A program made the position numbers and the translations under genes. A stretch of DNA of 48,672 nucleotides. It comes from Coleofasciculaceae cyanobacterium RL_1_1 (GTDB lineage: Bacteria > Cyanobacteriota > Cyanobacteriia > Cyanobacteriales > Geitlerinemataceae). The notes beneath the pieces were generated by a model. It had not been told where the DNA came from. It searched no databases and saw nothing but the letters and a program-made list of their open reading frames with translations. The stretch spans positions 1 through 48,672 of the forward strand of contig JAAUPN010000003.1 in the NCBI GenBank assembly GCA_012033105.1, written 5' to 3'. This document shows, in pieces, positions 3,440 to 18,258 of this stretch (positions within the stretch are counted from its first letter, which is position 1; every line of letters begins with the position of its first letter).

Positions 3440-4042
3440 TTAGCCCAAGTCTGACGGGGGGAAGCCCGAACCCGAGCCAAACTCGGGGATATCAGTATCG
3501 TCGTAGATCTCGGCGATCGTCACTTCGCAACCGACGCTCACGAGTTGAATGGAATCGGTTTTGCCCGCAAGGTTCCAATGGCCGCGATCGTCCTGTTGAA
3601 AAAGCTCGATCTGTTGGCGATCGGTGGAGATGAGAACGTATTCGGTCAGGCTGGGGATCGCGCGATAGTCGGTGAATTTTTCGGTGCGATCGAAGCGGGC
3701 GGTACTGGGGGAGAGAACTTCAATAATCAGGCGGGGATGGTTGATGTATTGGCTTTGGAATTGACGATCGCGCGGATCGCAGGTGATGACAATATCGGGA
3801 TAGTAAAAGGCATTGCGTTCTTCGACGCGGGTTTTCATATTTTCGGTAAAAATACGACAGCCGGAACCGCGTAGATGTACTTTCAAAGCCAAGAAAAGGT
3901 TACCAATGATCACGTTGTGGTTTTGTGTGCCGCCGGTCATGGCGAAAACTTCGCCGTTGCGGTACTCGTAGCGAGTGGGGCTGGTTTCTTCGGCAGCGAG
4001 GTAGTCTTCGGGGGAAATGTAGAGTGGATCGGTGGCAAGCAT
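3440..4042 (-). CDS. Uma2 family (DUF820) putative restriction-like endonuclease
   Basis: A 200-residue protein of the Uma2/DUF820 family, which has the PD-(D/E)XK nuclease fold and is greatly expanded in cyanobacteria; its biological role is unknown. Visible family features are the N-terminal segment YISPEDYLAAEETSPTRYEY, the PD at residues 82-83 in YYPDIVITCDP, and the E108 motif in LIIEVLSPST followed by a DRTEKFTDY stretch. These are the expected catalytic acid positions, so the fold appears intact. Length is normal for the family. The last 15 residues are Gly/Ser/Pro-rich and look unstructured. It stands alone, 68 bp upstream (on the plus strand) of the chelatase start and on the same strand, and shows no partner gene. 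Confidence 0.9.
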   Translation of the reverse strand: MLATDPLYISPEDYLAAEETSPTRYEYRNGEVFAMTGGTQNHNVIIGNLFLALKVHLRGSGCRIFTENMKTRVEERNAFYYPDIVITCDPRDRQFQSQYINHPRLIIEVLSPSTARFDRTEKFTDYRAIPSLTEYVLISTDRQQIELFQQDDRGHWNLAGKTDSIQLVSVGCEVTIAEIYDDTDIPEFGSGSGFPPSDLG

Positions 4043-4146
4043 TGTGGGAAACAGTGACGGAAATGAAACTAGTTTAGGCTGGAATAACGCAATAAACTAC
4101 AGTGCCATATCATCATTGGTTTCCATTATTCAGTGGGTTTCAGATA

Positions 4147-4331
4147 CAGGGCAAACGCATACTCCAAAATTCCTCGAATAAACGGTCACTTGAAGGCTGA
4201 GCGGAGTCGAAGCCTGACAGTTCTCGCGGTATGTGGCCGCACTATCTGCTTCGCAGACGCTACGCGAACGACTCCGCTCAGTGCTCAAATTCTTCATTTT
4301 TGCTTGAGAAAATTAGTATGCGTTTGCCCTG
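4147..4331. mobile_element. 185-bp miniature inverted-repeat element with target duplication
   Basis: A non-coding element bounded by perfect 17-bp terminal inverted repeats: CAGGGCAAACGCATACT at 4147-4163 and its complement at 4315-4331. It is flanked by direct copies of GTTTCAGAT at 4137-4145 and 4332-4340 (10 bp if the preceding G is counted), which fit a 9-10 bp target-site duplication. Inside is a second inverted pair, ctgagcggagtcg at 4197-4209 and its exact complement at 4269-4281, enclosing a GC-rich stretch. No transposase is present, so mobilisation would need one elsewhere in the genome. The right end lies inside the 3' end of the adjacent hydroxylase-like gene. Confidence 0.75.
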
Positions 4332-5136
4332 GTTTCAGATGACTTACTGGAAAGATAATTCGTTTCTGATAGTGGGGAGGTTTTATCGTCTTGAATATCT
4401 TGTCCCAAAATCCTTGGATACCATAGTTTCCTGTAAAGCTCGTATGATGAAGGTCATGGAAATCAGATGATATAAAAAATATCGATAATGAACTATGACC
4501 TTCTAAGTTGTAAGCATTGCCAACAAGAATCCATGCACATATTTGGTTGATATCATATCCAAATATAAAGATCGGAAGCAGATCTGTCACGGTCGTAACA
4601 ACAAATTCAACCCAGCTTTTATGGGCTGCCACAAAGCTTGATGTATCTTGAAATTCATGGTGCTTCAAATGAAATCTTAATAAAGACTTTCTGTGAAATA
4701 GAAAATGCGTTGTGTAGAAACACAAGTCAGCAACAATAATTCTCATTAGAAACCATCCGAAATTGAGAATTAAATCATTGCTTCTGTGGACTTCTGGCAC
4801 TAGATAAAGAATTACACAAGCTGTTACGATAGATTTTACCTCACCCAAGCAAAAGCCCTTGAACATGAAAGCAGGAAATTTTTGTTCTTTGACTTGGGAA
4901 ACTCTTGCACTCAGCTTATTTTTTAGAGTGTCGTTTCCCTTGATGACGCGCTCAATAAACAGGCCAATTCCATAAAAGGATAAGGAGCTAGTGATCCAAT
5001 ACAGGAACACCTGATTTGTATAGTCAATTTGTGTGTTTCCCAAAACTGCATAAAACACTTGCTGGAAGAATAGGCAAGCGATCGCAATCTTAAAATAAAA
5101 CTCAAATTCGGTCAGGATATTAAAAATTTTATACAT
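4294..5136 (-). CDS. Fatty acid hydroxylase / sterol desaturase superfamily membrane protein
   Basis: A membrane di-iron-type oxygenase-like protein of about 280 residues. The histidine clusters expected for this superfamily are present in order: HFLFH, HLKHHEF, an isolated histidine in NLEGHSS, and HDLHHT near the C-terminus. Hydrophobic segments lie between them. The ATG at 5136 (MYKIFNILTEFEF) is chosen because the longer frame starting at 5253 adds about 39 residues translated from a dispersed repeat. The gene is more AT-rich than its neighbours and lacks HIP1 density, which suggests acquisition. The C-terminal residues GQTHTNFLKQK and the stop codon are encoded by the miniature element; without it the gene would end ...SHLKPTE. 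Substrate is unknown; family confidence is good. Confidence 0.82.
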   Translation of the reverse strand: MYKIFNILTEFEFYFKIAIACLFFQQVFYAVLGNTQIDYTNQVFLYWITSSLSFYGIGLFIERVIKGNDTLKNKLSARVSQVKEQKFPAFMFKGFCLGEVKSIVTACVILYLVPEVHRSNDLILNFGWFLMRIIVADLCFYTTHFLFHRKSLLRFHLKHHEFQDTSSFVAAHKSWVEFVVTTVTDLLPIFIFGYDINQICAWILVGNAYNLEGHSSLSIFFISSDFHDLHHTSFTGNYGIQGFWDKIFKTIKPPHYQKRIIFPVSHLKPGQTHTNFLKQK

Positions 5137-5172
5137 CCAATCAACTCTGATTCTTATTATCAGAAAAAACAA

Positions 5173-5303
5173 GTAGGGTGTGTTTTGGTCACCCGCCACC
5201 AACCAATCCGCAGACAATACAAGCCTGACCAAAACGCACCGCAACCCTGTCAAGCTTATCGTAATATCCTCGGCGCGTTACGGTTGCGCCTAACACGCCC
5301 TAC
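5173..5303. repeat. Dispersed GTAGGG-bounded palindromic repeat (MITE-like)
   Basis: About 131 bp bounded by imperfect inverted ends: GTAGGGTGTGTT at the left, and at the right a sequence whose complement is GTAGGGCGTGTT. An inner inverted pair, tgttttggtca near 5181 and tgaccaaaacgca near 5226, adds further secondary structure. Repeats with GTAGGG...CCCTAC ends are common between genes in filamentous cyanobacteria. It lies between the start of the hydroxylase-like gene and the next gene, so it may carry or disturb their promoters. Confidence 0.55.
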
Positions 5304-5406
5304 CGTTTGTTGCGGCTCATATCTTCAGCTTGGTCAGTTCCCGAAACGATCGAGATCCATGTACGATCGACACCTGCCGTAGTTGATCCGTCCAAGAGCC
5401 GCCCCC

Positions 5407-18159: not shown

Positions 18160-18258
18160 TTAGGACATTCTTATCTAAGCTTAAAACCGCACTATTCGCT
18201 TCGCGAAGGCTACGCCAACGACTCCGCTCAGTGCTCTCAGTTTCTTTACATGTCCTAA
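18160..18258. repeat. Short dispersed element with TTAGGACAT ends (99 bp)
   Basis: Perfect 9-bp inverted ends: TTAGGACAT at 18160-18168 and ATGTCCTAA at 18250-18258. The interior holds cttcgcgaaggctacgcc and cgactccgctcag, the latter the same core as the other two elements. It lies between the sulfotransferase gene start and the next gene, so it sits where a promoter would be expected. Confidence 0.62.

Follow-up and report, generated by a model that had tools for sequence, protein, structure and literature searches.

The window, a stretch of 48,672 nucleotides from the genome of Coleofasciculaceae cyanobacterium RL_1_1, carries on its minus strand a fatty-acid-hydroxylase-like gene (PF04116; 4294–5136) that encodes 280 amino acids from a start common to its homologues, and the 3' end of this gene runs into a repeat element of 185 bp (4147–4331). 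The last 11 codons (GQTHTNFLKQK) and the TGA stop of the gene lie inside the element (4294–4329, minus strand), and a Uma2 gene (PF05685) is located downstream of it. Both terminal inverted repeats of the element read CAGGGCAAACGCATACT, the left one (4147–4163, plus strand) being followed by C and the right one (4315–4331, minus strand) by AA, just as in the ISAs1 element L143 described below. The initial annotation had proposed perfect 17-bp inverted ends and a flanking duplication of 9–10 bp; indeed, the two arms are complementary at 17/17 positions, and the duplication could be defined as 10 bp with one changed base, since the left copy GTTTCAGATA (4137–4146) and the right copy GTTTCAGATG (4332–4341) match at 9/10 positions and differ in the last base, while other copies of the element show perfect 10-bp duplications. 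The coding content of the element amounts to fragments at most, with no transposase, and no Rfam matches were found in 3900–5400. Being short and transposase-free, with terminal inverted repeats, a target duplication and many copies of the same family in the genome, the element belongs to the MITEs.

A search of the own genome (G000) with the end pattern, allowing up to two mismatches, resulted in 54 occurrences compared to 2 for a reversed-pattern control, so the ends are not a product of chance. The element itself gave 43 matches, many of them to its internal module only. We read 41 loci around the end matches, the window locus included, with the pairs at L228 and L233 excluded from the survey of target duplications as spurious (7–8 mismatches at one end). 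At 15 of the 41 loci, 4147–4331 being one of them, the ends are paired and flanked by 10-bp duplications that agree at 9/10 positions or better, and in 11 of these 15 the duplication is perfect; the others comprise one locus with a 7/10 duplication, seven pairs without duplication and otherwise solo or spurious ends. Further copies with the same 17-bp ends, for which a genome search had been suggested, therefore do exist and carry 10-bp duplications. Twelve aligned copies share a common body and differ in their modules, as a 24-bp palindromic insertion is absent in three of them and a 17-bp tandem duplication is present in three. The closest copy (98% identity over 155 of the 185 bases) sits at a contig end, and as the genome is a draft of 349 contigs one might ask whether the 17-bp ends and flanking repeats were assembled falsely from collapsed repeats, but matching 10-bp flanks are not expected from a false join and the same structure is found in 14 other copies of this genome, which makes such an artefact extremely improbable. 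The internal module (4237–4286), a palindromic repeat of about 50 bp, is also dispersed without the ends of the element, at 18187–18236 of the window and in many contigs of G000, as if the MITE were hosting a second repeat family.

A transposase with matching ends had been proposed as a further check. We first considered DDE_Tnp_1 matches from five genomes as partner candidates, but most of them are without such ends and were rejected, and for this reason the ISAs1 transposase profile NF033564 was searched in 59 genomes with a cut-off of 70 bits, giving matches in 39 of them. The match at L143 in a genome of the same order (G052; 438.6 bits) belongs to a 1213-bp ISAs1 element with a transposase ORF of 375 amino acids, terminal inverted repeats identical to those of the MITE at both ends (17/17) and a 10/10 target duplication. 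When the ends are compared side by side, the outermost 18 bases at the left end of the MITE and the outermost 19 at its right end are those of L143, with the polarity kept, showing that the slight asymmetry of the IS has been kept too; inward of the ends no similarity between the MITE and L143 was found. Duplications of 10/10 are also present at L146 and L159, whereas the other 8 of 11 IS copies have none or run off a contig edge. The features of a MITE related to ISAs1 (type I), namely the ends of an ISAs1 IS and a duplication of 10 bp, were thus both found, and since L143 combines identical 17-bp ends with this duplication and the MITE has no transposase, the element at 4147–4331 is, judged by its sequence, an ISAs1-type MITE. 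The matching transposase was found in another genome, but in the own genome (86.55% complete) we found no ISAs1 element whose ends are exactly these, and the only ISAs1 copy there has ends mismatched at 6/17 positions, so that the partner would have been lost, be unassembled or be located elsewhere. Given the incompleteness of this genome, the missing partner weakens only the claim of a resident one. We also observed a broken ISAs1 transposase gene with a MITE-type end some 30 bp beyond its limits (L124, G053:C406:82-133), perhaps a nested or degenerate element.

The minus-strand ORF ends ...SHLKPGQTHTNFLKQK* at 4294, its reading frame continuing from the gene into the right end of the element and reaching the stop after 11 codons, and thus both frame and coordinates agree with the earlier claim that this end supplies GQTHTNFLKQK and the stop. 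The FA_hydroxylase domain (PF04116, 80.9 bits with a cut-off of 31) covers residues 130–250 and lies upstream of the insertion. Homologues are 58–65% identical, and the 280 codons are uninterrupted with start and core conserved. We compared the C-termini of 26 homologue loci, in which some species may be represented twice, by different sources, and of which L180, L181 and L197 were read only in part. All share a common core up to FP(V/T/A/M/I), followed by 8–33 poorly conserved residues, and given this hypervariability the element landed in a region where changes to the protein are tolerated. The tail GQTHTNFLKQK is present in none of the 26 loci, in line with its origin from the element. Joining the flanks after removal of one duplication gives ...P-T-E-stop and so supports the reading of the pre-insertion end as ...SHLKPTE-stop, but the ending LKPTE occurs in 0 of the 26 loci and this allele is therefore a reconstruction. 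Counted after FPV, the new tail has 16 residues, which is within the range of the homologues, and the presumed old tail 7, one fewer than the shortest homologue tail (8); the net change would be small, +9 residues if TE was replaced by GQTHTNFLKQK. An empty site for the gene, which the initial annotation had hoped to find in relatives, was not found, the nearest homologue being about 65% identical. Neither of the other two genomes of the genus has the gene, nor does any other genome of the family searched, so that no empty site could be read there. The distribution of the gene is patchy, with 18 of 386 genomes in a sample of the phylum, the own one included, and horizontal acquisition is possible; no relatives were found in a viral collection at the sensitivity used.

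Its absence from these genomes of the genus and family may also mean that the gene is a dispensable acquisition, and the element, when folded as RNA on the strand of the gene, forms a strong hairpin (-84.6 kcal/mol, z -7.5) that is now part of the 3' end of the message. Both points would fit a decaying pseudogene, with the element merely marking its 3' end, an irrelevant tail and a protein that is not made or not used. Against this stand the uninterrupted codons, the conserved start and core, the identity to the homologues and the complete Pfam domain, and we regard a pseudogene as unlikely. The hydroxylase-like enzyme presumably still works, since the insertion is downstream of its entire conserved core. 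The 3'-end hairpin could affect the processing of the message between the hydroxylase and Uma2 genes. An AlphaFold model of the 280-aa protein based on an alignment of 8 sequences was useless (mean pLDDT 37.9) and was discarded.

Very probably, then, an ISAs1-type MITE was inserted in trans at the last codons of the hydroxylase-like gene and donated its tail and stop. Directly observed are the element with its ends, duplication and relatives, and the frame that leads from the gene into the right end, where 11 codons precede the stop. From the identity of the ends to those of an ISAs1 element we infer that an ISAs1-family transposase acting in trans moved the non-autonomous MITE. Its insertion into the last codons of this membrane fatty-acid-hydroxylase-like gene would have made the 10-bp target duplication in an earlier allele that had GTTTCAGAT once and ended ...SHLKPTE-stop, and the residues TE would then have been replaced by GQTHTNFLKQK together with the internal stop of the element.

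To see the hydroxylase gene in the context of its genus we surveyed 147 distinct MITE ends in three genomes (60 in G000, 47 in G001 and 40 in G002; end matches left out include C93 and C99 of G000, C171:13488 and C491 of G001, and C84 of G002). Altogether 17 ORF records of at least 80 codons enter one of these ends, and a Pfam scan of 13 of them (left out were one of two at L248, two at L307 and one at L309) revealed a Pfam family in two ORFs, the hydroxylase and a response regulator. The response regulator (PF00072 and PF00486; L220, 2528 region, G000:C176) ends ...KRDRGS-GQTHTRL-stop at a solo MITE end, which donated its last 7 codons and the stop. Its orthologue in G001 (L279), which is 88% identical, ends ...KRDRSSGQEQAH and has no MITE end, and the one in G002 ends ...AKGDR; at the sequence level, the comparison of G000 with G001 is a near-empty-site comparison for this gene. 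A third ORF of 263 amino acids (L268, 2065 region, G001:C56) ends QGKRILV-stop in a MITE end; it has no Pfam match and a single homologue, in G002, which is 60% identical and carries an unrelated tail. Homology-supported genes are hence closed by 3 of the 147 ends in the three genomes, and in our judgement the remaining ORFs entering ends are probably shadow ORFs. Depending on the frame, the conserved MITE end reads QGKRIL, RANAY or GQTHT. The idea that such elements create new C-termini without destroying the gene has thus gained two more cases in the genus and is already in print elsewhere. That C-termini in the genus repeatedly derive from ISAs1-type MITEs, forming a recognisable class of tails that selection may in part maintain, is a tentative suggestion that we would rather doubt at present.

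In the focal element 5/6 entering frames stop within 18 codons, and three genes of the genus end in such codons, as might be the case if the ends were built to give stops in all frames and insertion at gene ends had been selected as a safe landing. Over 15 copies, however, 49/90 entering frames stop within 18 codons compared to 45.4 (sd 4.5) in resampled sequence, which is no enrichment, and so few of the surveyed ends close a homology-supported gene that we consider a selected safe landing very improbable. Without stop enrichment, donation of a C-terminus seems to follow incidentally when an insertion falls close to a gene end, and not from a built-in property of the element.

MITE-donated C-termini have already been described for the QMITEs of Coxiella and as in-frame fusions in Rickettsia (PMC5896051, PMC10969869). 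QMITE1 and QMITE2 of Coxiella burnetii overlap the 3' ends of genes, as does the focal MITE, but they belong to other element families in another host; the C-terminal 33 residues of EnhC from the Dugway strain are presumed to be derived from QMITE2 with a stop just after them (PMC5896051), whereas here the stop lies inside the element. The palindromic elements of Rickettsia are, according to a review, small, inserted within ORFs and read in frame (PMC10969869), and thus are fused with host genes like the focal element, which in contrast ends its protein. ISAs1-family ISs are described from cyanobacteria, ISAsp2 from Anabaena sp. 90 (PMC3542288) and ISPlr1 from Planktothrix (PMC9366434); they represent the family of the presumed donor but are autonomous and larger than 1 kb, unlike the transposase-free focal element. 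For Anabaena sp. 90, MITEs of 77–541 bp have been reported, with 15/147 inside ORFs, insertions that make pseudogenes and no relation of the MITEs to the inverted repeats of the ISs in that genome (PMC3542288); in the last two points they differ from the focal element. The focal end sequences gave no match in the open-paper literature, and in those open papers, as far as their text was accessible, no ISAs1-type MITE from cyanobacteria was found.

In summary, the hydroxylase gene is a clean case, in which one can see the insertion as well as the change that it made to the reading frame. The link to the ends of ISAs1 provides a plausible mobiliser for these abundant miniature elements, and the three cases offer peptide signatures that would allow C-termini made by transposons to be counted in cyanobacterial genomes at large.
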